Source of the DNA: Ricordea florida
Taxonomy: Eukaryota; Cnidaria; Anthozoa; Corallimorpharia; Ricordeidae
Direction of reading: 5' to 3'
Length of the DNA stretch: 64,000 bases
Assembly: GCA_949710005.1 (NCBI GenBank)
Contig: OX453275.1
Span: 24,718,718 to 24,782,717, forward strand
Below, in pieces: positions 2,096 through 53,529 of the stretch; within the stretch, counting starts at the first letter, position 1, and every line of letters begins with the position of its first letter. Below the pieces are notes generated by a model. That model was not told where the DNA came from and ran no database searches. It worked only from the letters and a program-made list of their open reading frames with translations. Position numbers and translations under genes: made by a program.

Positions 2096-2497
2096 ATGGC
2101 TTTTTTTAAGAGTAAACGACTCTTCGGCTGTTTGAAGACGAAACAAAGCAGGACGATCAGTTCGGGAACTTATCGACGAAGCGGAGAATCACTTGGCGGA
2201 AGTCTCCCAAACGCAGATAACGAAGGCGATCAAACGACGATTTTTTCAGCAACGCAAGAGGAACTAAATCAATCCGCACTGATGAATCTTACCTCTTCAC
2301 GTCCCATTATGTCAACAACAGGAATTATCAATGTTATATCATCCCCGCTCGTCGATGAATTCAACCATAGTACAAGTCATGATCACGGAGGCCAAGAAAC
2401 GGCAAATGAACATGGCGAAGTCAGACCGCCGGCTTACAGCTCTTTGTTTTATTGTCCGCCACCGAAATACGAAGATATCGTGCTGGCCTCACAGTAA
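2096..2497 (+). CDS. TM-less dual-PPxY protein (tail-only family member)
   Basis: A 133-residue single-exon open frame with an ATG in the context atcATGg. It has no signal peptide and no membrane helix. The N-terminus is basic (MAFFKSKRLF), resembling the juxtamembrane end of a cytoplasmic tail, and similar to the start of the protein at 9311 (MSLFRRKRLW). The C-terminus has PPAYSSLFY at about 111-119 and PPKYEDIV at about 122-129, the same pair found in the tails of the membrane-anchored proteins at 44778 and 52801. PPxY motifs are established ligands of WW domains, notably in NEDD4-family E3 ligases. It probably acts in the cytosol as an adaptor or competitor of the anchored members; that role is inference. 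An upstream exon supplying an ectodomain cannot be excluded but none was seen. Confidence 0.65.
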   Translation: MAFFKSKRLFGCLKTKQSRTISSGTYRRSGESLGGSLPNADNEGDQTTIFSATQEELNQSALMNLTSSRPIMSTTGIINVISSPLVDEFNHSTSHDHGGQETANEHGEVRPPAYSSLFYCPPPKYEDIVLASQ

Positions 2498-5400
2498 AGA
2501 GCCTTGTTCACTACAGTTATATTTGCGGTGTACCAACTGCGTTCAAACTGTTCTTATGAAGTGCTTAGTTGATTCTCAGAAATTTCTCTCAGTTTTTTTT
2601 AATATCACGACAAACCGTGGGACAAAGGGAACAAGCTAAAGGTAAAAACTTTGAGAACGAACTTCTCTATTAGCATAATCAAACTGTCGTCATTCGCAGT
2701 GAGCAATATTCAATTTTATGAATTAAAAGGCGAGATATGATATCTCGGCCAGGTGCTGATTTAAAATTAATGGTTTCTTAAAATAGTGTTTCGATTCAAG
2801 TAGCTCCGATATGTAATAATCCGCTTTTCTTTTTGGTTGATGTGTGATATATTTGCGGCGACAACCGGTCGGAACACACACTGATCACAGCTATAAAGTA
2901 TAAGCTAAGGAAATTAACATTGCTAATGACTACAGTAAATAGACTTTGTGACTGGTCACGCAGTTGTACATGAAAAATTACGAAAGAAGTATAAGTACAG
3001 TAAATATTTTCATTTTTTCATATGATCATTGCCTGTGATAGATGTAGTTTTGGACACAGGCAAACCCATAAGAAAACATAAGGGCTCAAAGGCGAACTCG
3101 TGGAATACTGTATTTGCCGGAAGTGAAAGATTCAGGAGGGCCATTCATCAACAAAAAGGCCAAAGTTTGAATGTAATCCCTTAAAGGAAATACACAAGTT
3201 CTCTCTCGGAAAAATGTCGGCGAGCGAATGATCCGACATATCCACTCTTTATGTACACACCAGAACCACAGAAACACGGAAGATGATATAGACACTTAAC
3301 TTTGAAGCTAACTCTGTAACATTCTTTCATATGTAACAGTTTGGTAAGCTAAGCGTAAACGCGTTGCTCAACAGCCATTTGACCATTGGTAACACTGTCA
3401 CACCGAATCTCATTTCGTTTCGAGAGGCGACATGCTCATAGTAATGCATGTAGTCACAGAAGATAGTAAAATAAAGTCATATTTCTCCCTAACTGAATTG
3501 AATAAAGTCAGAATCGCTAAAAACCTGAAGAATCACCAGAAAACTTTCTATTTAACATGTTTAACTGAAACTCAGTAAAGATAACCCAGATTTTCAGGCT
3601 TCCCGTTTCGGGTTCTTTTATGTTTGCTTCCACCTGGCTTTCGCGGAGCATGATATGCTTAATCAGACCACAATTCTAGAAGAAAATGCTTCGCCCTTAA
3701 TCCTTCGTGAGTATGCGTTAACCCGGCTCCACATGACTTGTCAAATTTGTTTCTGACTGGGCAGTTTTCCCTGCAAAAAGACCGATAGCGCCAAAACAAA
3801 CATTTTTCAATTTTGATCACGCGTATGAAACCTTAAACACGACAGAACTCAACTGGGCAGAGATGTTCAGGAATATCTTTGCCAAGTTTCCATCGCCAAA
3901 TCGAATAAGGTTGTCAACTTTCTATTAAGCATATATAAGTGCCCGTTCGCGAACCTTGGGGCCCGCGGGCTTCCAGCCAGACTAACGGTCACTCTCCATT
4001 TCTATTTGCTACACCTTCATAAACAAAGGTTTTTAAAAAAAGTCTTGAATTCGTTTTGTAAGCTTATTCGTGACAGAATAAATTCTTAAACAATGCGTCA
4101 TTTAGCAAAGCAAACTACGTGTTATTTGGCAGGTTAAAGCGAAACCAAAGCACCGTCTTAGCTTTTATTCAATTTTTGGCCGAGCTAAAATACAATATAG
4201 CTTGAAGGTCACATGTGAAGACAAAATGAAGTCACTTTTTTTTTTCGCCTATATAGCTAGCGCTAAGACTAGATAACAACGATGTTGGCTTTCGTTTTGG
4301 AGGCGCTTAGAATTTATATAGACTCGACCCGGAATTGAAATTGAAATTCGAGAACGCATTATAATTTCAATTGTTCGAACTCTAAATTCAATAGTTCGGC
4401 AATGATGCAAAACGACTTTGTTCGAGTTTTTGATAAGAAAATTCAGCGGTGTTCGTAAAATTTGGTTGGTTGATATATTTTACGATTACAAATACTGATT
4501 TTTACAAAACTTGTTTAACTCCTACTTTCACAATTGAAAATGACTACAATCAATAAAAAAGCACCTGCCGTCTCATCGGAAGATGAATTGCTTAAGTTAT
4601 TGACTTGTTACCGCTGCACACTGGTGAATTCTAAACATCAATTGATATAAATATACTGCGACGGTGCGAAAAAAGGCCATTTTTCGCAACTTATCCTTTG
4701 AACGAGCGAAAAACGAAATTACAAAAACGTTTCTTGGTAAGTAACCATTGTGTTTTGTTAACTGCAGTGCTATTATAATCTTCAGGTCGCTCTTCGTGCA
4801 TTGTTTTAGAAATTATAATGTACAAGAAATTCCATTCGAACCTAAAGTTTTCAAGCTATAAACTATGTATCTTGGTTGTTTTTGCTGGTGCACGTTAAAT
4901 TCGTCTCGTTGCTGCCGAATAGCTGATATTTAGGAATGTACTCGAGGAAAGTTGAAATATTGATTTTGGTGCAATGTTTTCTTGGTATAATCCAACGTAG
5001 CGACAGCGCTTGCGAGCCAAACACACTTGAGGAAATATTGATTTTCTTATCTAAATCGCATGGTGCAAAACGATGCCCAATGTTTGTGCGTTCAAAGTTT
5101 GTGTAGTTGTATTTTATATTTTACACTCAAATATTTTCAGCTGCATTAGAATTCAAGTTGGACCCATTTAACTTCCATTACTACAAGCCCCATTGTCTGG
5201 TTGTTGGTTGCATTATGAAAGGGGCCAGCAAACTATAAAAAAAGAGATTGCAACGTCATTGCAGCAACGGTGCTTGCACAGTTCCTGTCAAGTAATTGTC
5301 GCGATATCTATTTACGGTATTTAATGGTATAAAGGAGTTGGTTTCTAAGGAAACTGGTGATGTATCGGTGGGGAATTGAAAAATAAAAACACAAAGAAAA

Positions 5401-8570: not shown

Positions 8571-8829
8571 ATGGGGGAGGGGGGGGGGGGGGTGGGGAAT
8601 TTTCAGCTTGCACGCTCACTGCTTGTGCAGGAATTTTTTTTTTCAGGTGAACCCCTCTGCACGAATTTGTTTTACTACGTGTGAAAACGTCACAATTGGA
8701 CCTTCCTTCTGCATGAACTTTTTTTTTACCTTCTTTTTTGCATGAATTTTTTTCTTGGCATTTTCCCTTGCATGAATTTTTTTCCCCACCCCCCTCCCCC
8801 TCCCATCACTTTTCTAATGGTCCGTCCCT
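8571..8829. mobile_element. MITE with GGGACGGACC termini, copy 2 (one end truncated)
   Basis: This is the reverse complement of the element at 316-543: the same 'cagcttgca', 'ctgcttgtgcaggaatt', 'aggtgaacccctctgcacg' and 'acgtgtgaaaacg' blocks occur in order, ending at ctaatggtccgtccct. The left end lacks the outer part of the inverted repeat and starts in the G run after 'gagcgtat', so it is truncated there. It also has extra 'gcatgaatttttt' units compared with copy 1. Confidence 0.7.
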
Positions 8830-9310
8830 AAGGTAAAGCAGTTAAAGTCACATATTACGAAGCATGATTTAACAGTTGTAGCGCTAGATAATAAAGTAAA
8901 ACAAATTTCGAAATTCTTTGGGACTGTAACACGGTTACACCGCGCATGCGCATCACTCACAATATTATTTACATAGAAAAAGGAAGCTAACCGGGGTCGG
9001 GCAAAACAATTTTGGGGACCTCTCTGCTAGCGCCTATGGTAGAAACTGTTTTCATCTTTTGTAATAAACTGAGGGAAATTATAAGTCAGGACGCTAATTG
9101 CGTTGTAGGAAGATAAGTTTGTCGCAGCTGCAGATAGCAGGTGCAAAATATTTAAGGGTGCACAATTGTTTTATTTGATACGTTAGTTAGGTTATTGTTT
9201 TCTAATTAAGAGGTTTGTTTTTACAGGATGTTCTCATGTTCTTGGCGAAGTAGCTGTTTGAGTGAACTCCACTTTAGAATAAATATCTTTAAGTGAACGC
9301 AAGCCGTGAG

Positions 9311-10681
9311 ATGTCTCTCTTCAGGAGAAAACGCTTGTGGAGCAGAGGTCGAGAGGGGGTATATCTTGTCAACGTTGACACGAACAAATCCGATGAGAAG
9401 GATGCTTCCCGGATAAGACCGGATGTGGGGAACAGGCCGAAATCTCCTCAAGGTAGAGGTGGTCTCAGTTCTGCAAGTAGCTTAGTTTCTATTAGCCAGT
9501 TTGATCGCGAGAATAGCCAAATAGCAACCTCTACGAAAGGCCCTTCGCAATTGACGGAATTAAAGAATGGTTGGTTTGGTTCGTTAGACTCGCTGGATGT
9601 CGACGAAGTAGGGGATTCCACGTCCACGCTTCTTTCTGCTCCTAGGATAAAATCGGTAACGGCTTTACAACAAATTGAGGTCGACGTACACGAACAGAAT
9701 TTCGGAATAACTAAAGGCGAAGCATACACTGCTCAAATCAAGCCTCAAGACATCACAAACGATCGGAATGTCGAAGATATGACGACGCCGTTGTCGGAAC
9801 GTGTTAACGGCGATGAACGACACGATGACTCTGATTCGGAGAGTTCGACGAAAACCTCGGAAAGTTCGGAAAAGGACATTGCGGCGTCTTCAAACAGCGA
9901 GTCGGACGACGATGGTTCAGTGTTTGATTTTAACGCTTACATCGAGCGGCTATGTGATGGTGAGAACGGCAGTGACACAGAGTCGGACGAAAATTGCAGC
10001 AATGCATCGGACGCAGCACTCAAAAAAGCTATTAATATAGTCATCAGAAAAATCAAAAGGGAGCGCTCGAACGAACTGGCCGATTCCAATGACGGTGGCT
10101 CTCATAACTCTTCCGAGAAAGGTTCGGATGACGAGGAGTCTACGAACAGTGACGACCACACAACAACCAGTGATAGTGACACCGACGGTGAATCCAACTG
10201 TTCTTTCTCAAGCGAGATCGAAAAAGACGTTGACCCTGAAATTGCCGAACTTATTGAAGACGGATTAATAATACATCCTATAAACGGGAAAACACAAAGC
10301 AACGCGACTCGCCTTGTGTACAGGTATTATCTCACTAAAGAAGGAAAAATTGATTCGGTTCTGGAGAAAATGGAAAAAGTGTCCGATGAAGAGGAAAACT
10401 CATCCAAAGAAACCAACGACGATAATCACCTCGCTTCTACTCTATATACTGAAAATGTTCAAGATCTTCGATGGCCTTTTTCAAGTTATTACGTGAAAGA
10501 GGTACAAGACATCCCCGTGGGGGAGGAGGATGTGCTGCCATCCTATAAGTCGACCAAGGCCTCCGCGTCCTTTCCAGGTCGAAGTAGAAATGTGATGCTG
10601 GGGCGAGTGTGGTGGGTGGAGTGGTGGGCAAGAGAGGATATGAAGATGAAATCTCATTCGGGGTCAGATATTGGACAGTGA
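9311..10681 (+). CDS. Acidic Ser/Asp-rich protein with one PY-like motif (TM-less relative)
   Basis: An open frame of 456 codons from the first in-frame ATG (9311); the frame is open further upstream only through non-ATG codons. The N-terminus MSLFRRKRLW parallels the protein at 2096. There is no signal peptide and no membrane helix. Residues about 160-330 are dominated by Ser, Asp, Glu and Asn, typical of a disordered region rich in casein-kinase-type acidic serine sites. A short basic patch (KKAINIVIRKIKRER) interrupts it. Near residue 409-412 is LPSY, a PY-like motif matching the LPAY of the protein at 21193. The last 44 residues are Trp- and basic-rich and may not be the natural end, because a GT follows 'tttccag' near 10578 and could be a splice donor. 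The long frame is most unlikely by chance. Function unknown; cytosolic or nuclear adaptor is a guess. Confidence 0.6.
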   Translation: MSLFRRKRLWSRGREGVYLVNVDTNKSDEKDASRIRPDVGNRPKSPQGRGGLSSASSLVSISQFDRENSQIATSTKGPSQLTELKNGWFGSLDSLDVDEVGDSTSTLLSAPRIKSVTALQQIEVDVHEQNFGITKGEAYTAQIKPQDITNDRNVEDMTTPLSERVNGDERHDDSDSESSTKTSESSEKDIAASSNSESDDDGSVFDFNAYIERLCDGENGSDTESDENCSNASDAALKKAINIVIRKIKRERSNELADSNDGGSHNSSEKGSDDEESTNSDDHTTTSDSDTDGESNCSFSSEIEKDVDPEIAELIEDGLIIHPINGKTQSNATRLVYRYYLTKEGKIDSVLEKMEKVSDEEENSSKETNDDNHLASTLYTENVQDLRWPFSSYYVKEVQDIPVGEEDVLPSYKSTKASASFPGRSRNVMLGRVWWVEWWAREDMKMKSHSGSDIGQ

Positions 10682-13280: not shown

Positions 13281-13289
13281 CCCGGGGGT

Positions 13290-17609: not shown

Positions 17610-17897
17610 TTATGCAAATTTATGGTCCATAGCACGGAGTCTTTCCACTTCTCGGCTTTCTTCGCTACAATTTTGTCTGTTTTCCACAGCACGGAGTCTT
17701 TCCGCTTCTCGACTTTCTTCGCTACAATTTTGTCTGTTTTCCACATCACGGAATCTTTCCGCTTCTCGGCGTTCTTCGTTAACATTTTGTCTATTTTCTC
17801 GAGCCCGGACTCTTTCTGCTTGTCGGCGTTCTTCGCTATAATTTCGTCTCCTTTCTCTTTCCCCAGCGCGCCTTCTTTGGCGATCTACTTCGCTCAT
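17610..17897 (-). CDS. Charged 19-residue-repeat protein of Helitron-like copy A
   Basis: A 95-residue frame starting MSEVDRQRRRAGERERRR and continuing with about three and a half units of the type ENRQNCSEESREAERLRAV (19 residues, 57 bp). The sequence is almost entirely Arg, Glu, Asn, Ser and Ala and would form a charged helix. Similar Arg/Glu repeat tracts are known in proteins of animal Helitrons and in STPR-type DNA-binding proteins. It may be the remnant of an element-encoded DNA-binding protein rather than a host gene. Copy B at 50.3-50.6 kb has more units and a small insertion that breaks the start region. Confidence 0.4.
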   Translation of the reverse strand: MSEVDRQRRRAGERERRRNYSEERRQAERVRARENRQNVNEERREAERFRDVENRQNCSEESREAERLRAVENRQNCSEESREVERLRAMDHKFA

Positions 17898-18246
17898 TCT
17901 TCCTCAGTTAATTCTTGCTCTCTTTCCCGTTGCTCTTCACCTGTGTTCTGCAAATTATATTTTCTCTGCTATTGTTTGTTGACATAGCAATAGAAATTGT
18001 TTCGTTTATCCTTTAGCAGTGTAGAGTAGTAATATTGTGTCTTAAAAAGACAATGAACTGAAAATTTCTTTTTCAGTCGTCAACGCAATTTCCCGCCAAA
18101 AATATGCGGGCTACCAGAACAGCTTCCAAATAAATCACGTCACCTCGATGAGTTGACACATGAGCCGACAATATGGTCATGTGATGCTGGTCAGTGGCTA
18201 TCCCGTTATGACAGCTGTCAATTGACCATATTGTGAATGTCCAATA

Positions 18247-21192: not shown

Positions 21193-21822
21193 ATGGCGTT
21201 TGTACAAAAATTTGTCACAGTTATAGGACTCGCTTGGGCATCGTTCATTCTTGGCGTTTCATCGCAGTGTGATCGAATGAAATCTTGTCCCGGAGGTGGA
21301 CTTTGCGTGGAGAACAGTTGCAAAACAGATGCCGCGGAGTCGAACACGACTGGCGTGGAAATTTTAGTGGCGATAATGAGTGTCTCTGTGGTTCTAATTA
21401 TTGGATTAGTCGTTGTGCTGGTTTACGTTTGTTTCAAGAAAGGACCCTGGGTGAACGAGAACCATGAAAGTCACACCCAGTCGAGCTGTCCGAATTCAGC
21501 GGTTGAAATCTTCCCCCAACGAAGGAGATTTTCATCGATGACTATCACGAGTGGCCCTCCACCATATTTCAGTCTATTTGACGTTATCATACATGACGGA
21601 GCCACAGTCATAAGAAGCAGTGCAGAAATCGAACAAAACTCCAACGCACTGAGCCGCGTTCATAACGACAACGGCGTTCCGCGGATTCTAAGCTTCGACT
21701 TAGAACTACCAGCGTATCACGTTCTATTTGGGCAGTTGCCACCACAATACGACGACGTTGTGTTTTACGAGACCGCGCCGGAGCACACAAATAATTCCGC
21801 CTTACAAACATGTACAGACTGA
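21193..21822 (+). CDS. Type I membrane protein, short Cys-rich ectodomain, three PY motifs
   Basis: A 209-residue single-exon frame with ATG in the context gtcATGg. Residues 1-24 are a signal peptide. The ectodomain is short with four cysteines (26, 32, 38, 43) and an N-glycosylation site NTTG near 51. A membrane helix spans about 56-80, followed by FKK as stop-transfer. The tail has PPPYFSL at 122-128, LPAY at 172-175 and PPQYDDVV at 183-190. This matches the family at 36165, 44778 and 52801, with the smallest ectodomain among those with a PY tail. PPxY tails recruit WW-domain proteins, typically NEDD4-like ligases controlling trafficking and ubiquitylation. An adaptor or orphan receptor at the plasma membrane or endosome is likely; the ligand is unknown. 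The Shisa/WBP1-like architecture is analogous, not proven homologous. Confidence 0.8.
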   Translation: MAFVQKFVTVIGLAWASFILGVSSQCDRMKSCPGGGLCVENSCKTDAAESNTTGVEILVAIMSVSVVLIIGLVVVLVYVCFKKGPWVNENHESHTQSSCPNSAVEIFPQRRRFSSMTITSGPPPYFSLFDVIIHDGATVIRSSAEIEQNSNALSRVHNDNGVPRILSFDLELPAYHVLFGQLPPQYDDVVFYETAPEHTNNSALQTCTD

Positions 21823-26034: not shown

Positions 26035-26465
26035 TTGTCTGTCACAGAGTTTCTAGCCTTCTACAGTTGGGATTCATTCTGCACTACGTCACGAATCCGT
26101 AGATTAGCAGCGACGGCGGCATCCCGGGTAGGCCTAAATTCTGGCGCCTCAATGCGCAGCTCGGTTGGTCCGCCTCTGTTTCCCGGTCGGTCACAGGACA
26201 GTTCCAATGGGTATAACTGTTTCACTGCCCGCTCTATATGCGAAGTGCCTGTGCGCAGCTTCGCTGCCCGTACAACATCATCGCGCCCCTTGATAAGCTC
26301 CACAACGATTCCGATCTTCCACTTTGCACGATTCTTTTCGTCCGAATTTATCAGCACGATCTCGCCAACACTTGGGGCGTGTGGAATCCCGGAATTCTTT
26401 TGGCTGTGACGTTCACGGAGACCCCTGACGTACTCCCCCGTCCATCGCTTCCAGACGATCTCCTG
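26035..26465 (-). pseudogene. Frameshifted C-terminal (DUF5641-type) part of the BEL polyprotein
   Basis: In a second frame on the minus strand the sequence continues with 'VWKRWTGEYVRGLRERH' and 'VGEIVLINSDEKNRAKWKIG', the typical domain that follows integrase in BEL/Pao polyproteins, and runs to about 26061. It is separated from the main frame by a one-base shift near 26466. Its presence shows that the main frame's last ~40 residues are out-of-frame translation. Confidence 0.75.
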
Positions 26466-29400
26466 AGGTACCTCGCTTGCTTACGTAAATCTCTATCTTC
26501 CAGGTGATGCGGTTCGGCGAAGTCCACTCCTATGACCTGAAATGCATTTTTCCCTTCGGTGCGATCTCTTGGTAGCTGTCCTGGTGGCGGGGTGGCGAAG
26601 GCTGAGGTGTGGAAACGCTTGCAACCGTTACAAGCTTTAACAACCCTCTTTGCAAGGCGTCGCAACCTTGGGATCCAAGATTTCTCACGAATCTTTGCCA
26701 TTGTGAGGCCCACTCCCCCGTGAAGTGTGGTTAGATGTGCTTCTGCAACCATCTTGTCTGCAAGCGGGTGAGAATCGGGCACGTATATCGGGTAGTCTCC
26801 CTGGATCCGCCCTCGGCACACAAGCAACCCAGCTGCATTCTTCTGAAGGTTAAGTTGTAGACGATGGTCTTCGAACCCCTCATTTCCCTTTGAGCTGTCC
26901 TGTACTCTCTTAAGCCACAAGAGTTGCTGTTTGTTGATCTCGTCTGTCGTGAGTGGTCCCTTGGATCTGCTGGCCTTGACGCTCCGCAGGTTGTGAATGA
27001 AACGTGCAATCCAAGCGCACACTCTCAGGGTTTTCCATAAGCTGAACTTAGCCAGCAGGTCATCTCTGATGTCTGTCTGAACCTGCGCCACAGCGAATAT
27101 TTCTCGTACCACCTTTGCTTCCGCCTGACTCTCTGCTGTGGCTGTTGTTTCAATGTCGGCTGGCCATCGCTCTCGATCTGGTAGCCATTCAGGCCCTCTC
27201 CACCATAACTCTTCGTTTTCGATGCTCCTGCTTCGACTTCCGAGGTCTGCTGGGTTGTCTTTAGTGCCCACATGACGCCATTTCACTTCTTCATGCTGCT
27301 TGATCTTGTGGACTCGGTTGCTCACGAACTGTTTGTAACTCCCTCCTCCTTTAATCCAATGCAACGCTACACTGCTATCTAACCAGCAGAACATCTCTCC
27401 AACCGGAAATCCCTCTAGTGCTTCTTTAACATTCATGATGAGGTTGCACGCCATGTGACCCGAGACCAACTCGAGGCGGGGAATGGTCAGGCCTTGCTTC
27501 GCCAGTCTGGCTTTGGCTGCTATCAACCCGACACTATTTCCGGATGGCTGCGATATGACGCCGTACACTGCAGCAGAAACGCCTTGTTTGCTCGCGTCGC
27601 CGAAACAATGCAGCACAATATCAGTGATCTCCTCACGATGTTGAGGTATGGCTCTGGGTGCGGAGACGCTCACAGACAGCCGTGCCTCCCATCTCGTCCA
27701 CTTGGTTGCCAGTTGACCTGGAAGTTGAGCATCCCATGCCGTTTTCAGCTCACACGCGTCTCGGTATAATAGTTTCCCGCCCAGCGTCATGGGTGCTACG
27801 AGTCCCAATGGGTCGTACACTCTCGCTATCTTCGCCAGTATCCCTCTCTTCGTTACTTGGGCACGGTCAGTTGGGAACTTAACTTCTATAGTGTCTTGCT
27901 TCTTATTCCATGGGAGCCCGAGAATGGAGCCCCCTCCCTTTTGAGGAGCACCCAACTGATTCTTTGCGAACGTAGTGTCTCCGCTAAGCGACTCAAAAGG
28001 AGACTCCACTTCCGGTACATTTGAATGCCACTTGTGTAGCTTGAATGAAGCTTGACCTAACAAATTGGTGGCACCATCTTTAACTTCAAGGGCCGCTTGC
28101 ACGGAGGGTCCACCACTGATAAGGTCGTCTACATACAAACTCTTCTCTATTTGTCTCACCAGATCCGGGAGCTCAACACGGCAGGCTTCCAGGTGCTGCT
28201 TGATTACTCCCCCCAGAAGAAACGGCGATGGCGCCAAGCCAAATAGCGCTCTCGTAAACCGCAGTACCTCCACTCGCCTGGACTCTAAGTCGGTAATCCA
28301 GTGGAATCGCATAGCATCTCTGTCTTCCTTGCGTATACGGACTTGCAAAAACGCTTGCTTTATGTCACCGGTTAAAGCTACAGGGTGGAAACGTGCTCGA
28401 ACCAACACTGCCCATAGCTTGTTCTGCAACGGAGGTCCCGCGTGAAGGCACTCGTTGAGCGATGGAGCCCTCTCTGAAGCTCGGGCTGAGGCATCATACA
28501 CAATGCGGAGCTTGGTACTCTCCGCTGCCTCTCTCACTACAGCTTTGTGGGGGATGTAGAATTCCACTCCCACTGGTTGACCTGATACTCGCTCCACTAT
28601 CCCCTCTTCAAGCTGCTCTCGTATCACCTGGTCATAACGATCCAGGAGGTCAGACCGTTCCAGCTTCCGCAGTAACGAATCTAGCCTTCGAAGACTGCCT
28701 CCTTCGTTACTTGGGAGGGTTAGATGGTTGCCTTTCCACGGGAGCCCCGTTTGGTACCACCCCTCTGGGCTGCGCTGCAATTGCTCCTTGAACTCGAGGT
28801 ACACTTGTTCCTGATCTCCAAGAGGAGGATCTTGAAGCCCCAGTACATCGAGCTGACACAGCTTCTCGTAGTCTACCTGGGATGTCTGCGTCAAGAGCAT
28901 CCTAGAGAGGTCTGGTTCCTTCCCCGGGTGCATGATGGTCCAGCCAAACCTTGTCATCTCAGCCACTGGCTCTCCAGGGCTTCCGACACGTGGTGCTTGC
29001 TTTGTCTTGATCTGAGCAAACTCACTGGCACCAAGGATTAGGTGTACGGGTAACAGTGCTTTCGTATCACTATCATCCATCTTCACTCCCTTCAGATGAC
29101 TATAGCGCTCGAGAATGTTACTGTAGTTTGGGTTATCAAGTTCCACCAATGTCGGTTTTTCCACACGTGTGACCTCTATTGTCAGCTGAAAATCTCCGTT
29201 GAGATTTGCCACACTCACACTTGTGATCTCCACCTCCCGAGTAGCGACTCCCAGCATCATTTCGATTCTTCGCACTTGTCGTTTTCCAGGTCTCGCACCA
29301 ACACGGTCGAGCAGCGCTGCTGAAGCATAAGAGCTCCCCGCCCCGGTGTCCAATAGTGCACGGCATCTCACTCCCTCCACATCAACGATTACGACTGGGT

Positions 29401-30694
29401 ACACGACGGCGCTATAACCAGAGTACGTAGCTGTCAACAGCTGGGTTGCCTTGTCACAAATAGATGTGTGGTGCCGCTGACCACAATTTTTGCAGGTTGA
29501 GCGACTCTTGCAGTCAGCAGCCCGGTGTTTTCCAGCAACACAGTTGAAACAGAGGCGCTTGGAACTCAATAACCTCTTCCGCTCGTCCAGTGTGGCATAT
29601 TTGGTGCAATCATTCTCTCTGTGCTCACTGTTGCCACAGTAGGCACACCCACGTACTCGTTCATGTGCGTGGAAGGACTTCGCGCGCGTGTGCGAATTCG
29701 GACTTTCGCTATCCTCCACCGGGTTAATTTCTCTCCATTGCTTTAAGGCTTGAACCAGTTGTACAAAATCCCACTCTTGCCAGCCACTTTGACCACGCAC
29801 TAGATCTGCCTTTATCCCCTTCAACTTCTCCAATACCGATCTTACATTTCCTGTCACGTCACGCAATTTCCCGAGAGTTTCCAAGCTCTGCACGTTATGT
29901 AACAGCTTCTTGTAAAACTCGTCCACTCTCTTCGGATTAGAACTTGCGATCACTGGCAATCCCATAATATTGTTGATATAGGCGTTGACGATCTCTGACT
30001 CTTTTCCATACTCTGATTGTAGGATATTCTTCGCGCGCTGATAACCTTCGCTCGAGAATGGTAGCCCGTCGATTTCCGCCCGCACTTTCGGGTCGACTAG
30101 CTCTTTCAGATAAGCAAACTTGGTAACGGACGCTATATCTGCCGAGTCGACTTCTGCGCAGAACTTGTTCCAGAAAGACAACCAACCTTCGTAAGTCCCG
30201 TTGAACTTAGTTATGGTCAACTTGGGTAGTTTCGCTGTGTCTCCCTTAGAATCTGGTTTCTTGCCTTTGTTTACATCTGCCATCTTCTTGTCATATTCTA
30301 ATTTGAGCTCGAGTCGCGCGCGTTCGAACTCCAATTGCTCCTTCCTTTGTTGATATAATGCAGCTTCTTCGGCCTCTTTGCCGGCTGTGCTAGCCTCCCT
30401 TCTGATGTCGTTCAGACGTTTCCCACCCCGCACAACGCCTTCATCGACGCTTGCGAGTTTCATTTCAACTTCACTACTCCACGTGGTGACCTCTTGTTGC
30501 GTGTCTCCTTTGGAGATTTTCGCTTGTTCCACCTGAATCTTCAGGTCATCCACTTCCTTAGACAGCTTTCTAAGGGCATCTAGATGTCTGTCGATCGTCT
30601 CGACGTTTCCTCCCGCTAGGATTCCTTTGGTTTTAGCTTCGGTTAGCTCCAACAGTTTGACTTTGGTTTCGATCTCCTTAATGAGTGCTTCCAT
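26351..30694 (-). CDS. BEL/Pao Gag-Pol polyprotein with deleted integrase core
   Basis: A 1447-residue frame from an ATG at 30694. In order: an N-terminal coiled-coil Gag region (about 1-150); a DUF1759-type Gag domain with 'KFNGTYEGWLSFW' (about 155-300); three zinc knuckles (CAYCGNSEHRENDC, CFNCVAGKHRAADC, CKNCGQRHHTSIC; about 355-425); an aspartic protease with LLDTGAGSSY (about 450); reverse transcriptase with YVDD (about 860); RNase H; and the integrase zinc-binding domain (HLTTLHGG then CNGCKRF, about 1330-1385). Immediately after 'FQVIGVDFA', where the integrase catalytic core should begin, the sequence jumps to the following domain ('EPHHLEDRDLRKQARYL'), so the D,D-35-E core is missing, and a one-base shift then breaks the frame. 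The element can no longer integrate by itself. Confidence 0.9.
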   Translation of the reverse strand: MEALIKEIETKVKLLELTEAKTKGILAGGNVETIDRHLDALRKLSKEVDDLKIQVEQAKISKGDTQQEVTTWSSEVEMKLASVDEGVVRGGKRLNDIRREASTAGKEAEEAALYQQRKEQLEFERARLELKLEYDKKMADVNKGKKPDSKGDTAKLPKLTITKFNGTYEGWLSFWNKFCAEVDSADIASVTKFAYLKELVDPKVRAEIDGLPFSSEGYQRAKNILQSEYGKESEIVNAYINNIMGLPVIASSNPKRVDEFYKKLLHNVQSLETLGKLRDVTGNVRSVLEKLKGIKADLVRGQSGWQEWDFVQLVQALKQWREINPVEDSESPNSHTRAKSFHAHERVRGCAYCGNSEHRENDCTKYATLDERKRLLSSKRLCFNCVAGKHRAADCKSRSTCKNCGQRHHTSICDKATQLLTATYSGYSAVVYPVVIVDVEGVRCRALLDTGAGSSYASAALLDRVGARPGKRQVRRIEMMLGVATREVEITSVSVANLNGDFQLTIEVTRVEKPTLVELDNPNYSNILERYSHLKGVKMDDSDTKALLPVHLILGASEFAQIKTKQAPRVGSPGEPVAEMTRFGWTIMHPGKEPDLSRMLLTQTSQVDYEKLCQLDVLGLQDPPLGDQEQVYLEFKEQLQRSPEGWYQTGLPWKGNHLTLPSNEGGSLRRLDSLLRKLERSDLLDRYDQVIREQLEEGIVERVSGQPVGVEFYIPHKAVVREAAESTKLRIVYDASARASERAPSLNECLHAGPPLQNKLWAVLVRARFHPVALTGDIKQAFLQVRIRKEDRDAMRFHWITDLESRRVEVLRFTRALFGLAPSPFLLGGVIKQHLEACRVELPDLVRQIEKSLYVDDLISGGPSVQAALEVKDGATNLLGQASFKLHKWHSNVPEVESPFESLSGDTTFAKNQLGAPQKGGGSILGLPWNKKQDTIEVKFPTDRAQVTKRGILAKIARVYDPLGLVAPMTLGGKLLYRDACELKTAWDAQLPGQLATKWTRWEARLSVSVSAPRAIPQHREEITDIVLHCFGDASKQGVSAAVYGVISQPSGNSVGLIAAKARLAKQGLTIPRLELVSGHMACNLIMNVKEALEGFPVGEMFCWLDSSVALHWIKGGGSYKQFVSNRVHKIKQHEEVKWRHVGTKDNPADLGSRSRSIENEELWWRGPEWLPDRERWPADIETTATAESQAEAKVVREIFAVAQVQTDIRDDLLAKFSLWKTLRVCAWIARFIHNLRSVKASRSKGPLTTDEINKQQLLWLKRVQDSSKGNEGFEDHRLQLNLQKNAAGLLVCRGRIQGDYPIYVPDSHPLADKMVAEAHLTTLHGGVGLTMAKIREKSWIPRLRRLAKRVVKACNGCKRFHTSAFATPPPGQLPRDRTEGKNAFQVIGVDFAEPHHLEDRDLRKQARYLRRSSGSDGRGSTSGVSVNVTAKRIPGFHTPQVLARSC

Positions 30695-36164: not shown

Positions 36165-37130
36165 ATGCAGCCGTCGGTCATTTACACTTTGCTTCTGTTG
36201 ACTTCGCTTCGTGCAAAGCTTGCTGAATGTTGTGAAACACGAAGTGGGTGTCCACCGCTGATGGAATGCTGCGAGGGTGTTTGTGAGAGAGTTTGTTCGA
36301 TGGCTTGCTCAAACGACGCTGATTGCCAGAAAATTAACAGCGAATTAACTTGCGTGCAGAATATTTGCACCCGGATAAGCGCCGAGAGAAGCGATGGTAA
36401 CACGACTGCGGTCAACGACACAAGCAATGCGGAAGATGCAAAGGAGAAAATTTTCAGAGCGTGCGCTGGAGAAAACAACAATGAATGCAGCTACGGGAAA
36501 ATCTGTCGTGGTGGCATGTGTATTGAGCCTTCTGGCCAGCCCACGTCCACCTCTGACAACCTGAAGAGTATTGGTCATAACAACGAGAAGAAAGCAAGCC
36601 CAACAACAACGTCGCCAACGAGCACGACTCGTCCGTTTCTCAATGGAAACCAAGAATTTGTAATCGCACTGGTCGGGTTCTCTATTCTCTTCATGAATTT
36701 TTGCCTGATTTCCTTCTATTTGGCGCGTAAACGAAGAAGACGAACTCTCCAGCAGCGCTCCGAAGGAACGCAAAGCTCGCTGACAGCGGATGATTTCAAT
36801 GCCAACATCAATGGGGCCCAAGATTCAGAACAACCAATCAGTGACCACTACAATCGCATGGGAATGGACAATTTTGCTTTAAACGGAGAGCTGGATGGCT
36901 TTACCAGCGATTTTGTGCTTCCTCAAGTAAGACTTCCTCCTTACGATTTCAATTCGGCGTATCACAAACCAAGACCTATTGGCGCGGAGGAAAGTGAAGA
37001 ACTGGAAGGAGAAACCGTGGATGTACATGACGACAGTGAGGATCCCCCGCCATACTGCGATCAAAGCTTCGAGAATCCGGGCCGTCCACCGAGTTATGAT
37101 GACATTTTGAAGCTCTCTACGGAAAGCTAA
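36165..37130 (+). CDS. Type I membrane protein with large Cys-rich ectodomain and three PY motifs
   Basis: A 321-residue single-exon frame, the longest membrane member here. Residues 1-20 are a signal peptide. Two cysteine blocks follow: about 22-68 with CC pairs (ECCETRSGC, MECCEGVC) and SNDADC, and about 100-119 (CAGENNNECSYGKICRGGMC). Between them lie N-glycosylation sites NTTA and NDTS. A Ser/Thr/Pro stalk (144-156) leads to a helix at about 165-187 and a strongly basic stop-transfer RKRRRR. The tail is acidic and carries LPPYDF near 265, PPPY at 294-297 and PPSYDDIL at 308-315. The final pair is the family signature. CC pairs recall Shisa-type proteins, but homology is not shown. It is likely a surface adaptor linking an extracellular cue to WW-domain ubiquitin ligases. 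Confidence 0.85.
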   Translation: MQPSVIYTLLLLTSLRAKLAECCETRSGCPPLMECCEGVCERVCSMACSNDADCQKINSELTCVQNICTRISAERSDGNTTAVNDTSNAEDAKEKIFRACAGENNNECSYGKICRGGMCIEPSGQPTSTSDNLKSIGHNNEKKASPTTTSPTSTTRPFLNGNQEFVIALVGFSILFMNFCLISFYLARKRRRRTLQQRSEGTQSSLTADDFNANINGAQDSEQPISDHYNRMGMDNFALNGELDGFTSDFVLPQVRLPPYDFNSAYHKPRPIGAEESEELEGETVDVHDDSEDPPPYCDQSFENPGRPPSYDDILKLSTES

Positions 37131-42350: not shown

Positions 42351-42359
42351 GCAACATTA

Positions 42360-43845: not shown

Positions 43846-43847
43846 TT

Positions 43848-44190: not shown

Positions 44191-44646
44191 ATTCAAAGAG
44201 TTGAAAGGGCCAAGTCGGAAACCTGAATCCAAAACCATCCATATCTCTGATCGCATTTAATAATCAGCGGTACCATAAGTGTTGCACGGATGGGGAAACG
44301 TAGCATTATTGGACTGATATTCCGATCAGATCACAGATGATCGCATTCGGTGACCAGCGATTAAATGCAAGTCAGATGCCATAGATTGTTTTTCAGTTCT
44401 CATAAATGAAAATATTTGAGGAGCCTTTACAGACTGTTATATCAATTTGTGACAACGCTCTTTTACGATTTTTATGGAAACACATTTTTCAGTTGCCAAT
44501 CCGATTTAGCGCTTTAAAAAGTTTTCATCGACAGCTCAGGGGATCAGAAATGCTAGAAACCCTGGCGACGGCGTTTATTTCGCTTTCGCGATTCATGCAG
44601 CTTGCCATTATTCCGGCGCTTCTATTCAACGGTCCGCTCCAGTCTT

Positions 44647-44751
44647 CCCTTTAGTTGCGTTCCCTTTAGTTGCGTTCCCTTTAGTTGCGTTCCCTTTAGT
44701 TGCGTTCCCTTTAGTTGCGTTCCCTTTAGTTGCGTTCCCTTTAGTTGCGTT
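44647..44751. repeat. Seven perfect 15-bp tandem units just upstream of the 44778 gene
   Basis: The unit CCCTTTAGTTGCGTT is repeated seven times without change, followed by a partial unit, ending about 27 bp before the ATG at 44778. In the gene's frame each unit has a TAG, so the array cannot be coding and fixes the start downstream. It lies in the 5' UTR or core promoter and could affect expression if copy number varies. Confidence 0.9.
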
Positions 44752-44777
44752 CCCTTGTTTTGATCTCTGTGTCCATA

Positions 44778-45449
44778 ATGGCGGTGCATCTAGTTCTTTG
44801 GTGGCTTATACTTGTTCCACCGTGGATTCGTTTCGTTTTCAGTGACTGCCATTCTCACCGTGAATGTACGCATGACCAGCGATCTAGCTGCTGTCGGGTC
44901 AGTCGGAACCATTATCAGTGCGTGATTGTTGACAAGTGCGAAGGGATGTGTTCCTTTCCGAGCGACTGCCCTGATTTGTCTGACAGGTGTGATTACACAC
45001 GAGGACAATGTAGGAGTACGTTGGTCGAGTGTGTGTCGAGCTCGGATTGTCTGGAGGGCCACAGATGCGTTTCAAATGAATGTGTTGAGAAGGAAGCCTC
45101 GAAAGTGAACCCGGCTATGACAATTGTTCCTGTACTTTTATTATTAGTATTTGCGGTCATGTTCTACATATGCGTGCGTATACAGCGAAAGAATCTTCGT
45201 CAGGGCCACGAATCAGGGCCAAGCCGTGCTGAAGCCCCTGAACAAACCGCAGCAGCAGACGATTCTTTAGGAAATACTTGGCCACCTCCAGCTAATGACC
45301 GTATTGTCGAAGACGGTCCGCCTTCGTACAGTAGTTTGGGTTTCTACGAAACCGACCTCTCTCCACCGACTTACGAGGAGGCCGTGAAAGCGGGTGTGAA
45401 AGAGGCATGGACAGAAGAGCGTTTATCAACGCGGGAACATGCGGTGTAA
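44778..45449 (+). CDS. Type I membrane protein, Cys-rich ectodomain, paired PY tail
   Basis: A 223-residue single-exon frame. The start is the ATG at 44778 (ataATGg); upstream the frame only reaches a TTG and then a stop in the 15-bp repeat. Residues 1-22 form a hydrophobic signal peptide. The ectodomain (23-110) has about 14 cysteines, including SSCC at 36-39, CEGMC, SDC and the repeated pattern SSDCLEGHRCVSNEC, resembling small disulfide modules of dickkopf or EB type. A helix spans about 113-132, followed by RIQRK. The tail carries PPSYSSLGFY at 181-190 and PPTYEEAV at 196-203. These match 2096 (PPAYSSLFY) and 52801 (PPSYEEAV) closely. It is an inferred WW-domain-recruiting membrane adaptor. 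Confidence 0.85.
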   Translation: MAVHLVLWWLILVPPWIRFVFSDCHSHRECTHDQRSSCCRVSRNHYQCVIVDKCEGMCSFPSDCPDLSDRCDYTRGQCRSTLVECVSSSDCLEGHRCVSNECVEKEASKVNPAMTIVPVLLLLVFAVMFYICVRIQRKNLRQGHESGPSRAEAPEQTAAADDSLGNTWPPPANDRIVEDGPPSYSSLGFYETDLSPPTYEEAVKAGVKEAWTEERLSTREHAV

Positions 45450-46755: not shown

Positions 46756-46757
46756 CT

Positions 46758-47544: not shown

Positions 47545-47714
<170 letters not shown>

Positions 47715-47814
47715 AGCAGTATAAAATTGGTTTACCAAACGATGATCTCCCAGTAAGAGGAGCCACAGGATACAATGTCTCGACGTGAATTTGTAGTTAA
47801 GTATACGATAAGGA

Positions 47815-48840: not shown

Positions 48841-48864
48841 TGGCTTTACCTTTTTCCTCAAAAG

Positions 48865-49075
48865 TTCTGCTCTAGGTATACTAAGACCTTTGTTGAACTG
48901 TTTATCAACAAGCTCCGCTGGATGATTTTGCGATTTAAAATACCCTTTGTATTCCTTACACCTATTTTGTCAGTAAAAAGTCGTCACTAGAACAATTGCG
49001 TTTGATTCTTAAAGCTACCCCAAACGGGACTGCTCTTTTGCCGAGCTTGTTGATAAACAGTTCAACAAAGCTCTT
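48865..49075. repeat. Inverted repeat 'agcttgttgataaacagttcaacaaag'
   Basis: About 48875-48920 contains 'acctttgttgaactgttt' and 'atcaacaagctccgc'; about 49033-49078 contains the inverse 'gagcttgttgataaacag' and 'ttcaacaaagctcttgg'. Arms of about 40 bp surround roughly 110 bp. It may be termini of a small element abutting the Penelope fragment. Confidence 0.6.
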
Positions 49076-49084
49076 GGTATTCGT

Positions 49085-49650
49085 GTCGTGCAAATTTGGT
49101 CTGAAATCATATGTTTGATTTCAAATATCGAACGAGCGCATAGCGCGAGTTCAATTTGAAATCACAAGTATGATTTCGGACCAAAATTGCACGACATGAA
49201 GTTCAATTACCACTTTGTTACACTCATTTTGAAATCACAGTTTTTTGTCAATACTACTTATTTATCAGACTACTTATTTATTTATCCACTACAATAAGCC
49301 CAGTGCAATTAAGAACAAAAAATGGTGCAATTTGTATAGGTAGTCACATGATTTCGAGTGCAATTTGGGATAAATCAGCACAAGTAAATTTTTCAAGGCT
49401 AACCAAATTGCACGAGCACGTAGGGCGAGTGCAATTTGTAGTCTTTGAAAAATTTACGAGTGCTGGTTTATCCCAAATTGAACGAGAAATCATGTGATTA
49501 CTTGTTAATAATATACATGCAAAAATTTAATTTCAACTTTCTGCACTCAATTTCAACTTTTTGCACTCAATTTCAATTTTCTGCACTGTTTGGGATTAAT
49601 TGACGTGCTCTCAGCCAATGAGCATGCTGAAATTTTTGCATGTATATTAT
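49085..49650. mobile_element. Cluster of palindromic MITE-like units
   Basis: Three units: 49092-49200 ('caaatttggtctgaaatcata' against 'tgatttcggaccaaaattg', centre 'cgaacgagcgcatagcgcgagtt'); 49312-49497 ('tcacatgatttcgagtgcaatttggga' against 'tcccaaattgaacgagaaatcatgtga'); and 49506-49652 ('taataatatacatgcaaaaattt' against 'aaatttttgcatgtatattatta'). All are non-coding foldback structures ending exactly at Helitron-like copy B. Confidence 0.65.
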
Positions 49651-51692
49651 TAGCGGGGCTCCCGCGCGCGAAGCGCGCGCGGAGCAGAGCCCCATACTCA
49701 TGGAATATGGTCAACCTCTTTTCGTTTGGTTGTCACGTGACTGACCGAGCGTACGTACGTCCGTACGTCCGTACGTACGCGTCTACAGATTGTACGGGTA
49801 GGGTAGGGGAGACTATCAAAAGGAAGGGAGGGGTATCTCAGGCTTGTCTTGGCAAATCCACATCTTTTATATTGGACATTCACAATATGGTCAATTGACA
49901 GCTGTCAAAACGGGATAGCCACTGACCAGCATCACATGACCAAATTGTGGGCTCATGTGTCAACTCATCGAGGTGACGTGATTTATTTGGAAGCTGTTCT
50001 GGTTGCCCGCATATTTTTGGCGGGAAATTGCGTTGACGACTGAAAAAGAAATTTTCAGTTCATTGTCTTTTTGAGACACAATATTACTACTCTACACTGT
50101 TGAAGTTTTACTAAAGGATAAACGAAACAATTTCTATTGCTATGTCAACAAACAATAACAGAGAAAATATAATTTGCAGAACACAGGGTTCAGGTGAAGA
50201 GCAACGGGAAAGAGAGCAAGAATTAACTGAGGAAGAATGAGCGAAGTACTGTAGATCGCCAAAGAAGGCGCGCTGGGGAAAGAGAAAGGAGACGAAATCA
50301 TAGCGAAGAACGCCGGCAAGCAGAAAGAGTCCGGGCTCGAGAAAATAGACAAAATGTTAACGAAGAACGCCGAGAAGCGGAAAGATTCCGTGCTGTGGAA
50401 AACAGACAAAATTGTAGCGAAGAGTGCCGAGAAGCGGAAAGACTTCGTGCTGTGGAAAACAGACAAAATTTTAGCGAAGAAAGCCGAGAAGTGGAAAGAC
50501 TTCGTGCTGTGGAAAACAGACAAAATTGTAGCGAAGAGTGCCGAGAAGCGGAAAGACTTCGTGCTGTGGAAAACAGACAAAATTGTAGCGAAGAAAGCCG
50601 AGAAGTGGAAAGACTCCGTGCTATGGACCCGGTAAATTTGCATAAGTTTTGTCTGCATAATATTTGCTCACTGATGCGTGACTCAGCACTCGCACTTTCC
50701 ACTTTCCCTTAAACTTGACACTTGACTTGGAAAACCGACTTCTAAACAAACCTTCTTCAGAAAAATGATCTTCTGAATGCACTACTTTTGAATGAGAAGC
50801 AAACTGATGAAAGATTTCAAATTTTTATGTCCTTTAATCATATAAACATTTCCCCTGTCGACGGCTAAGAAATACTCCCGCGGGAATTTTCTCTTGGCGG
50901 CAAATTGCAGAATGTAGCGCTTTCACTGGCAGCTTTTCGCGTTGTCGACGTTGTCATTTAGTGTGTCGATTGAGAACTTTGGTTTCAACGCCGTTGTTTT
51001 CGTAAAAAATGTTCTTCTAAATTGTAAAATGTCTCAAATGTATGTTAGTCATTCACGTGTTGCGTTGGACCAGGTCTACTTATAGTTCACACTTTTACGG
51101 TTATTTATTTCTTTTGTTTAAGTAACTACAGCTGATTGTAGTGAATAAATGAAGGCAGTAATTTTTTAAACTTACAATGTAATTAAGAAAAGAATAATTA
51201 ATAATTATTTTTTCATTCTCGTGAAAAATGTTTTTCGGGCTGGTAGATGTTGGTTACAGCTTGCCCGAAGGGCAATGTGTAAAATTAATTTTCTTTGCAC
51301 CCTGCTTGGAGTAAACATTTATTTTACCGAGGTGTTCGTTTTAACACAAAAATGACAAGAGTTGTGTCCTGCATTTCCCAGTAGCGTGTACAAATCTTTT
51401 AAATACATTTAGAAAATAGAATGGTTAATTTCATCAGGAATAGAACACAGTACATTGATAATTTGTGTTTTTTGTAGAATATACTCCATGACTTTGTAGG
51501 TAGAAAGACCGTACTTATGGCAGACGAAAGTTTAGACAAAAATCATAGCAAGTTAACCGACCTCGATACTTAACTATAGTTAAAAACGTTTGTGAATTCC
51601 TTCGCAATATTTTAGAATGCTTTTACAGTTTAAAGTGAAATGAAAGTACTAACGGGAGCCCCGCTTTTAGGCTTGGCTAAATCTATATATTA
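49651..51692 (-). mobile_element. Helitron/Helentron-like element, copy B (uninterrupted)
   Basis: The reverse complement of copy A without its two insertions: 2042 bp from 'tagcggggctcccgcgcgcg' (the 3' hairpin end, in reverse) to 'ggctaaatctatatatta'. It differs from A by a longer GTAC run (49752-49780), more 57-bp repeat units and scattered substitutions. It serves as the empty-site reference for the P-like element and the 173-bp MITE in copy A. Confidence 0.6.
50236..50638 (+). pseudogene. 57-bp-repeat protein frame of copy B, start region broken
   Basis: ATGAGCGAAGTA is followed by an extra five bases compared with copy A, producing a stop at once. The repeat itself remains open (50395-50712 frame) with five or so units of ENRQNCSEECREAERLRAV type, against about three in copy A. 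The unit count therefore changes between copies by whole 57-bp steps. Confidence 0.5.
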
Positions 51693-52800
51693 CTGAATAA
51701 ATCACACTGTTATGAGCCAATCAAATTGCAAGGATCACCCGTGTGGTTTCAAAATAAATGTAATAAAGCTTCTTATCGTTGCTGTTGCATTTAGTTCGTC
51801 GCCTCGCAGCACTTAACTTGTTATTACCAATCCCTAGTTATAGTAAGTATCATTTTGAGGTCATATTCATTTCAAATCGACTCGGCGTTAAATAGCTGCC
51901 CATAGTTGGAATTTCGAGCACCGAACGTAAATTAGTAGAGGTAACGCATCATTTTTGGACTTTGTAAAAGGAAGCTTCCTTCGAACGGGAAATCCCGGGC
52001 CAGTTTAAATTTGTTTATATATCAGTGGTTTTTTGATATTTTCAAAAATATTCTGAAAAAAGAGGACAACCTGAGAAGAAAGTACGTAAAATGCTATAAT
52101 AAGCGACTCGGTATGCTTTGTAAAGGTCATGAAAAAACTTCAATGGGTTGCTGCCCATACTTGGCACTGAAAAAAGATTGACCATGATCTCTACTAAAGC
52201 GTTAGTAACGATACATACAACTCTGTCAGAAAAGAACAAGTAAGCAACCTCAGCTCGAGGGGAAAAAAACTCCGGACACTAGGCCTGAGAAGAAGGTGTG
52301 ATGCCCTCAGCTGAGTTTTCTGCATCAGCACCGCGGTTCCCCCTACCCTACCAGGGAAGGAGCTTTGCGTGACGAGCCCGACATTGGCTGCAAAGGAAGC
52401 ACTTTTTACTTTAGACCTCAATGGGACTCCACTAAGTTCATTTCATATAGATTTCCACCGTTTCACAGCGTTGGTGGTCTTAACGCTCTAAGCTTTAGTT
52501 GAAAAGAAAACTGTCTTACAACACCGGATCAGCAACTTGACTTTATTTCTAAAAATATTGAAAATACAAGAATCTTTGTCATGCCTAGAGAGATTTTCTT
52601 TTCATTCCTCCGAGTTTTTGCCAGGTCTTGGCAGGCAGAAAACGGTTAGCTGCAGTTGAAGGGATCAATGGAATTTTCATTTCTGAAGTACAGTCATTGC
52701 TTGAATTCCATCGCCGAAGGTCCATTCCTAGAGTTCACTTGATAAATTACAGTTCCGGTAGAGCGTTTATTTATTCGTTCTTCAGTGACGGAAAAGTACA
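51693..52800. other. Upstream region of the 52801 gene
   Basis: No supported gene or repeat apart from the end of copy B. The open frame at 52628-52828 overlaps the true start in another frame and is probably 5' UTR. Confidence 0.3.
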
Positions 52801-53529
52801 ATGTCGGTTCGACGCTTTGCGTTGGTAGTGATTTCATTGCTCTCTTTACTGATTTCTTGCAGGATAAGTTCTACTTTTGCTTGCAATACCGACAACGACT
52901 GTTACGACGATCCTTATATCTACTGTTGTGATTATCAGTGCAAAGCTGATACTTGTGACTCCCTCTGCACCTACCACACTGATTGTCCCGACCACGAAAC
53001 CTGTGATTATTTGAGTGAAAAGTGTACCAATTTCTGCAGCAGTGACGGTGATTGTAAGTCAGACTACGAATGCCAAGATTACGGTTGTATTTGGAAAGAA
53101 GAAGAGTCCGATTTCAATGTAGGTAACATTTTTATCCTTATAATCGTCATAGTCGCCGCCATCTTTTTCGGGTGTTGTTGCCATTTCATTTCTCGGAAGC
53201 GTCGAGAAGAGCGGATGAGGGCAAATATGTCAACGGTTGGTGGACAAAATGTGGTCGAATCTCCGAGAATTCAGTCACCAACTGTAGATAACAGTCAGCC
53301 TCCTGTATATATGTTTCATTTAAACACACAGGGTAACAGTAATGGAACGCCGTCGAGGGATTCGACTGCAACTCCAGGTCAGCCTACACGTACTTTGCCT
53401 GAACAAAGCGAACCACGAAACCCTGATCCGATCGTTGATAACGGCCCACCTCCGTACAGTTTTGTAACTCATAATCCTGAAGACCCTCAATCACCGCCTC
53501 CCTCTTACGAGGAAGCTGTTAGAGCATAG
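52801..53529 (+). CDS. Type I membrane protein, 16-Cys-class ectodomain, paired PY tail
   Basis: A 242-residue single-exon frame starting at the ATG in 'acaATGtcg'. The signal peptide covers about 1-27. The ectodomain (28-97) contains regular blocks: CNTDNDC, YCCDYQC, TCDSLC, TDCPDHETC, KCTNFCSSDGDC, ECQDYGC, i.e. repeated C-x4/5-DC modules rich in Asp and Tyr. A helix at about 108-127 ends in GCCC, possible palmitoylation sites, followed by RKRREER. The tail has PPVY near 175, PPPYSF at 216-221 and PPSYEEAV at 233-240, just before the stop. With 44778 it is the clearest pair of paralogues. PPxYEE sequences are classic NEDD4-family WW ligands. Function in trafficking or receptor turnover is inferred. 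Confidence 0.87.
   Translation: MSVRRFALVVISLLSLLISCRISSTFACNTDNDCYDDPYIYCCDYQCKADTCDSLCTYHTDCPDHETCDYLSEKCTNFCSSDGDCKSDYECQDYGCIWKEEESDFNVGNIFILIIVIVAAIFFGCCCHFISRKRREERMRANMSTVGGQNVVESPRIQSPTVDNSQPPVYMFHLNTQGNSNGTPSRDSTATPGQPTRTLPEQSEPRNPDPIVDNGPPPYSFVTHNPEDPQSPPPSYEEAVRA

Follow-up and report, generated by a model that had tools for sequence, protein, structure and literature searches.

What are the cysteine-rich, single-frame genes that stand in a row on one contig of the corallimorpharian Ricordea florida, and what might their tails of repeated PPxY (PY) motifs be for? The question is raised by a window of 64,000 nucleotides, the whole stretch of DNA analysed here (assembly GCA_949710005.1, contig OX453275.1, hereafter C4, positions 24718718-24782717, in a genome of 538 Mb). 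A preliminary description had proposed a tandem family of single-frame, single-pass, cysteine-rich proteins with PPxY tails, and such a family exists and is larger than was seen at that time: the array consists of 12 open frames and two broken copies, all on the + strand, from C4:24720813 to 24968579 (~248 kb). From the combined analysis, we suggest that the family may consist of tandemly duplicated type I single-pass adaptors recruiting WW-HECT ubiquitin ligases to partner membrane proteins, an idea to which we give about an even chance.

Members are named below by their start in the window or, outside it, by their position on C4.

2096..2497, + strand: tail-only member of 133 amino acids, with no signal-like segment and no helix, ending PPAYSSLF...PPKYEDIV
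21193..21822, + strand: member of 209 amino acids with a signal-like N-terminus, one four-cysteine unit (spacing 5-5-4) and one helix
Within 21193..21822, + strand: tail motifs PPPYFSL, LPAYHVL and PPQYDDVV
36165..37130, + strand: full-length member of 321 amino acids with a signal-like N-terminus (weak by hydropathy), a 14-cysteine ectodomain with long linkers, and a helix
Within 36165..37130, + strand: tail motifs LPPY, PPPY and PPSYDDIL
44778..45449, + strand: full-length member of 223 amino acids with a 14-cysteine ectodomain, a helix and a PPSYSSL / PPTYEEAV tail
52801..53529, + strand: full-length member of 242 amino acids with a 14-cysteine ectodomain, a helix and a PPVY / PPPYSFV / PPSYEEAV tail
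52882..53100, + strand: ectodomain of 52801 with its 14 cysteines, apparently a CC-type cap and then two DPY-like units
53446..53526, + strand: paired PY tail of 52801, PPPYSFV ... PPSYEEAV
C4:24795317, 24806101, 24819838, 24841612, 24859126, 24902653 and 24934137, + strand: further single-frame members, from genome searches and reading of neighbouring DNA
C4:24788448, + strand: broken copy, its cap missing and its frame stopped ahead of the tail, with a stretch resembling a PY tail afterwards in another frame
C4:24967862, + strand: broken copy with a frame shift

The seven open frames first named in the window were all present on the + strand, and 3 to 23 codons before each ATG lies an in-frame stop, so that no preceding coding exon is needed. 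Splicing from such an exon was set aside for this reason, introns in the untranslated leader still being possible. In Pfam searches, all seven stay below the cut-offs. In the six-frame translation of the window, a PPxY with two acidic residues directly after it turns up five times, versus a mean of 0.025 and a maximum of 1 in 40 dinucleotide-block shuffles.

Family membership was assessed with a profile of five core members (52801, 44778, C4:24806101, C4:24841612 and C4:24902653), which was compared with the remaining window frames and C4:24795317, each query being accompanied by four controls, one reversed and three shuffled. No control reached 1%, and in left-out tests 44778 was recovered at 98.6% and 52801 at 98.8%. 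Both 36165 (97%, E 1e-10) and C4:24795317 (97.5%) are homologous to the core over signal, ectodomain and helix; 2096 matches in the tail only (69%, E 4e-5), and 21193 in its last four-cysteine unit only (36%, E 4e-4), a PY tail also being present. The proposed seven-gene family is hereby reduced to five in the window, with 21193 and 2096 belonging in part, and the frames at 9311 and 40745 are unrelated by profile. The latter (2.2%; a helix but no PY motif) may be a chance open frame, because its 121 amino acids fall inside the range of 15 shuffled windows, in which 0 to 6 open frames of at least 120 amino acids were found, the longest of 187 and none of at least 200. The former (0.1%; no helix) is beyond chance length at 456 amino acids, but is another gene. 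It is an acidic, Ser/Asp/Glu-rich frame (9311-10681, + strand) with one LPSY and no Pfam match; its start, MSLFRRKRL, recalls the MAFFKSKRL of 2096, and BLASTP found no similarity between the two.

How far does the array extend, and has it relatives elsewhere? No member was met in the ~77 kb read upstream of the window, where the best tblastn row (E 0.018, minus strand) lies in a Cys-rich repeat; for the sequence beyond 24.970 Mb, and in several places from 24.867 to 24.966 Mb, coverage was by protein search only. Whole-genome protein searches, which used single sequences as queries (eight of the 12 open members and one broken copy) and which distant relatives could escape, returned no off-cluster place with E below 0.02. 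The best off-cluster rows, from E 0.027, fall at 37 places with one TGA each, mostly cover one shared segment of the query and have the look of a repeated element; 2096 matched only itself. A spliced parent gene elsewhere in the genome was likewise not retained, as the single-sequence searches gave no convincing relative outside the cluster. The row at C13:5023677 (E 0.22) was rejected as a different protein, with CUB- and low-density lipoprotein (LDL)-receptor-like repeats by eye and a PPPYELA tail. The single-pass frame in question (C13:5022672-5024348) is itself lysine-poor in its tail, with one lysine in 169 residues. Tandem duplication is common in corals, involving ~30% of genes in two species, and the amplified families consist for the most part of transmembrane receptors, adhesion proteins and signalling proteins (PMC10236652), so the array as such is unsurprising. 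No description of a coral or cnidarian PPxY array was found in the openly licensed literature, judged from titles and the beginnings of abstracts.

Ten members are full-length, combining a signal-like N-terminus, a 14-cysteine ectodomain, one helix and a tail. The 14 cysteines are invariant in all seven aligned full-length members, and their spacing is identical in the remaining three. The first part of the ectodomain contains C-x5-C, a CC 3 to 7 residues later and two further single cysteines; two four-cysteine units follow, of which the last has a spacing of 5-5-4 in 10 of the 11 ectodomain-bearing members (7-5-4 in 36165) and the penultimate in 6 of 10. The ectodomain of 21193 is the last four-cysteine unit alone. 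This organisation resembles a CC-type cap followed by two putative units like the DPY module of Dumpy. In a PDB sequence search, the best match of the ectodomain profile (E 0.014) was indeed the Dumpy DPY module 1oig, with the same cysteine spacing, and Pfam Dumpy_DPY matches 6 of the 12 members weakly; however, the scores listed are all below the Pfam cut-off (best 21.2 vs 27 bits). Dumpy itself is a very large protein of the matrix and contains EGF modules (PMC2930355). For the whole-protein profile, the top PDB rows matched erbB-2 in the helix alone (E 0.005), and no NCBIfam family was matched above a cut-off. Past residue 30, a single hydrophobic stretch is found in 11 of the 12 open members and none in 2096; the N-terminal hydropathy threshold (at least 1.5 in a 19-residue window) is reached in 9 of the 11 helix-bearing members, whose best 21-residue helix windows hold 0 to 5 aromatic residues. 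A four-aromatic motif in the helix is a feature of STMC6 or Shisa-like proteins.

The tails of 11 of the 12 open members contain two or more PPxY motifs, for a total of two or three PY motifs each, C4:24795317 being without any, and each of the 11 has at least one PPxYxx-hydrophobic motif. In the preliminary description, the last PY motif was always followed by acidic residues. This is true of the five window members, and in the whole array the last motif is PPxY[DE][DE][AIV][LV] in 10 of the 11 PY-bearing members, the exception being C4:24806101 with PPPYAQVV. Five recent copies share PPPYSSL...PPSYDEAL. Such forms have precedents: the extended PY motif GLPSYDEAL is described as critical for Comm1, and GLPSYEQAV figures in the discussion of PRRG proteins (PMC5578492); the Y-to-A primer for the LPxY site of SUSD6, LPSAEEAVY in our translation, implies LPSYEEAV (PMC12720080); and PPxYxxL is the extended ENaC motif, which binds Nedd4 ligases (PMC2582799). 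The tail can thus be read as a known Nedd4-adaptor signature of the Comm/PRRG/SUSD6 type, set on an unfamiliar ectodomain. The expectation of a variable ectodomain above a constant tail is not supported. Between lineages, identity is 21-35% in the ectodomain and 11-37% in the tail (24-35% vs 19-37% without the PY-less member); away from its PY motifs the tail has diverged at least as much, the ectodomain keeps its cysteines, and one member has no PY motif.

The composition of the tails gives a further clue. In the six PY lineages they contain 12 lysines and 51 arginines in 658 residues, versus 27 and 29 in 557 residues of ectodomain (Fisher p 0.0009), and in comparison with four other long frames of the region the lysine difference reaches p 1e-8 per residue. 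PY-bearing helix members have one to three tail lysines, and 0 to 2 past the first 15 residues (six lineages counted); the tail of the PY-less C4:24795317 is lysine-rich (10 lysines and 7 arginines in 99 residues). Because they are lysine-poor, the tails look like poor ubiquitination substrates, and their composition suggests that they may recruit a ligase without being its main substrate.

This bears on the idea, which we regard as unlikely, that these are ordinary receptors with a ligand outside, whose PY motifs serve their own down-regulation by Nedd4-type ligases and AP-2. A signal-like N-terminus above a compact, cysteine-rich ectodomain would suit a receptor. So would YSSL, which we take to be readable as a YxxL endocytosis signal and which stands at the first PY motif of 44778, 2096 and the five recent copies, and the families amplified in corals are mainly of the receptor, adhesion and signalling kind (PMC10236652). 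However, tails with so few lysines look ill suited to this role, and the tail-only 2096 does not fit.

That the tails are directed at WW-domain ubiquitin ligases, as first proposed, is supported as a plausible reading. The genome contains 25 WW exon matches above cut-off, most of them away from HECT matches, and at three loci WW exons lie upstream of HECT exons.

C15:12462047-12478166, same strand: WW exons (four WW) upstream of HECT exons
C2:40451860-40468524, same strand: WW exons upstream of HECT exons, candidate ligase gene
C8:1038916-1054868, same strand: WW exons upstream of HECT exons, candidate ligase gene

This order is the layout of Nedd4-type ligases, and we regard the three loci as candidate WW-HECT ligase genes, each locus being one putative gene. 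Inside the array, between two members, C4:24953593-24953790 (+ strand) matches a C-terminal fragment of the HECT domain (E 1e-4); it may be a repeated element, because C5:18694044 matches the same profile positions.

Work on other PY proteins indicates how such tails could act. Activation of WWP2 by NDFIP2 requires multiple PY motifs (PMC12720080), CYYR1 loses WWP1 binding on pairwise but not single PPxY deletions (PMC11399591), and PY proteins that are membrane-associated or polymerised activate these ligases, for which clustering is held responsible (PMC5892558). WBP1L, which interacts with NEDD4-family ligases, acts on CXCR4 (PMC6991692). In the adaptors that we propose, the disulfide-rich ectodomain, with stalk and helix, would engage a membrane partner; as in the known adaptors, the two or three PY motifs of the tail would occupy several WW domains in a HECT ligase of the Nedd4 type and release the ligase from self-inhibition. 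Ubiquitin would then go mainly to the partner or the ligase, because the tail has very few lysines, and the ubiquitinated partner would be sent to endosomes and lysosomes.

It would also be conceivable, if quite improbable in our judgement, that the tails sequester non-ligase WW proteins (YAP, WWOX, MAGI) and so tune Hippo-type or apoptosis signalling. PPxY is a general WW ligand, VOPP1 brings WWOX to a lysosomal compartment (PMC6125347), and the many WW exons outside HECT surroundings would provide targets, but the acidic-hydrophobic and PPxYxx-hydrophobic forms found here belong to Nedd4-ligase adaptors and substrates.

Selection on the family can be judged from the five recent copies, three of which lie in C4:24.812-24.8665 Mb, where repeated blocks of at least 200 bases are 90-98% identical. 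They differ by 23 silent and 76 amino-acid distinct changes, these 99 including some inflated by alignment gaps in the stalk. By distinct changes, the amino-acid/silent ratio is 0.59 in the ectodomain and 0.62 in the tail, and the counts are 18 to 1 in the stalk (p 0.06, inflated by alignment gaps) and 14 to 0 in the helix (p 0.028). Ratios of pairwise sums, for which the region bounds are slightly different, are 1.08 for the ectodomain, 8.4 for the helix, 0.66 for the tail and 0.34 for the PY stretch. Positive selection on the helix is not claimed, the p value of 0.028 being uncorrected for five regions. When the 99 changes were placed neutrally, the probability of an open frame was 0.012 and that of retaining the 16 cysteines of residues 1-110, two of which belong to the signal-like segment, was 0.0025; frame, cysteines and PPxY motifs were jointly kept in none of 20,000 simulations. 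Frame and cysteines are thus held, and much else drifts.

Several observations weigh against ligase-recruiting adaptors. The PY-less C4:24795317 keeps its ectodomain, so not every member needs the tail, and the lysine contrast with this member is one case versus six lineages. WW proteins other than ligases, YAP and WWOX among them, are PPxY binders as well. For the signal peptides, hydropathy was the sole criterion, and 36165 and C4:24795317 miss the threshold. Among the recent copies, the overall amino-acid/silent ratio of 0.99 is also expected under weak constraint, and PPxY retention alone has a neutral probability of 0.14, which is not significant in a set too small for this purpose. A decaying, weakly constrained, lineage-specific family of little function, which that ratio and the two broken copies among 14 members (C4:24788448 and C4:24967862) would suit, is nevertheless improbable in view of the neutral simulations and of lineages that, at ~20-30% identity, keep the 14 cysteines and, all but one, their PY pairs.

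Where, then, does the family stand among described PY proteins? The preliminary description saw a kinship with Shisa, WBP1 and VOPP1. Array members do resemble the STMC6 group (Shisa, WBP1/WBP1L, VOPP1, CYYR1, TMEM92) in their small Cys-rich ectodomain, which also begins C..C..CC, their single helix and their PPxY tail (11 of 12), and NEDD4-family ligases are partners of WBP1L and CYYR1 (PMC6991692, PMC11399591). However, STMC6 or Shisa-like proteins are defined by a six-cysteine C*C*CC*CC ectodomain (PMC5578492, PMC6991692), whereas the array has 14 cysteines and the pattern is found in none of the 11 ectodomain-bearing members. Of 31 species searched, only bilaterians are reported to have Shisa (PMC7653359), and Pfam Shisa is not among the 18 families listed for the 12 members at E up to 1. 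Pfam WBP-1 matches two of the 12, C4:24934137 (22.2 bits, E 2e-4, covering nearly the whole profile) and C4:24841612 (17.4 bits), both below the cut-off of 28.1, and leaves the other ten unmatched at E up to 1. As the WBP-1 matches are below cut-off and C*C*CC*CC is absent, we do not file the family under STMC6; by profile, WBP-1 is the nearest described PY family, and there may be a remote tie.

Commissureless and PRRG4, which remove Robo, share with the array a single helix, several PY motifs and an acidic-hydrophobic extended PY, GLPSYDEAL in Comm vs PPSYDEAL in the five copies (PMC5578492); the 10 array members with this form have P instead of L in first place. In contrast to the 10 full-length array members, with at least 14 cysteines each, Comm has no extracellular cysteines (PMC5578492). 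SUSD6, which acts with TMEM127 and WWP2, has a single helix, an LPSYEEAV-type tail motif and a partner target, MHC-I (PMC12720080), but it has one PY motif, requires TMEM127 for WWP2 activation and shows no sequence relation. Pfam Comm matches one of the 12 members (E 0.0083, 16.8 bits vs a cut-off of 27). Unlike array members, PRRG proteins carry a Gla domain; the ectodomain of SUSD6 is of the Sushi type; and NDFIP proteins have three transmembrane helices, not the one of array members (11 of 12).

Other features of the region were noted in passing. A perfect 15-bp tandem repeat (44645-44756; 7.5 copies, 100% matches) ends 21 bases before the ATG of 44778 and might serve as a variable element of the leader or promoter. 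Arrays of a 57-bp unit, the same by eye and in opposite orientation, occupy 17626-17849 and 50290-50627 and sit in Ser/Phe-rich repeat-peptide open frames (17622-17987, + strand; 50140-50658, - strand). Between 21193 and 36165 lies a 1447-amino-acid open frame (26351-30694, - strand) that by eye is like a BEL/Pao-type retroelement polyprotein, and a similar-looking frame occurs at C4:24824374. Two related elements bounded by poly-G/poly-C, at 340-540 and 8575-8830 in opposite orientation, resemble miniature inverted-repeat transposable elements by eye.

We speculate that one array might supply a repertoire of adaptors, with a common lysine-depleted tail and with ectodomain, stalk and helix varied for different targets, in which 2096 would be a soluble competitor and C4:24795317 a dominant-negative form or a substrate; we hold this extension only tentatively and think it rather unlikely. 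In the literature that we met, known transmembrane PY adaptors are a few scattered genes of vertebrates, flies and yeast. If ligase-recruiting adaptors are indeed encoded here, an expanding array of them in a non-bilaterian animal would suggest that tandem duplication can diversify the selective removal of surface receptors just as it diversifies receptor families, and the array would be a compact natural set of variants for testing what part ectodomain, helix and tail each have in the choice of targets and ligases.

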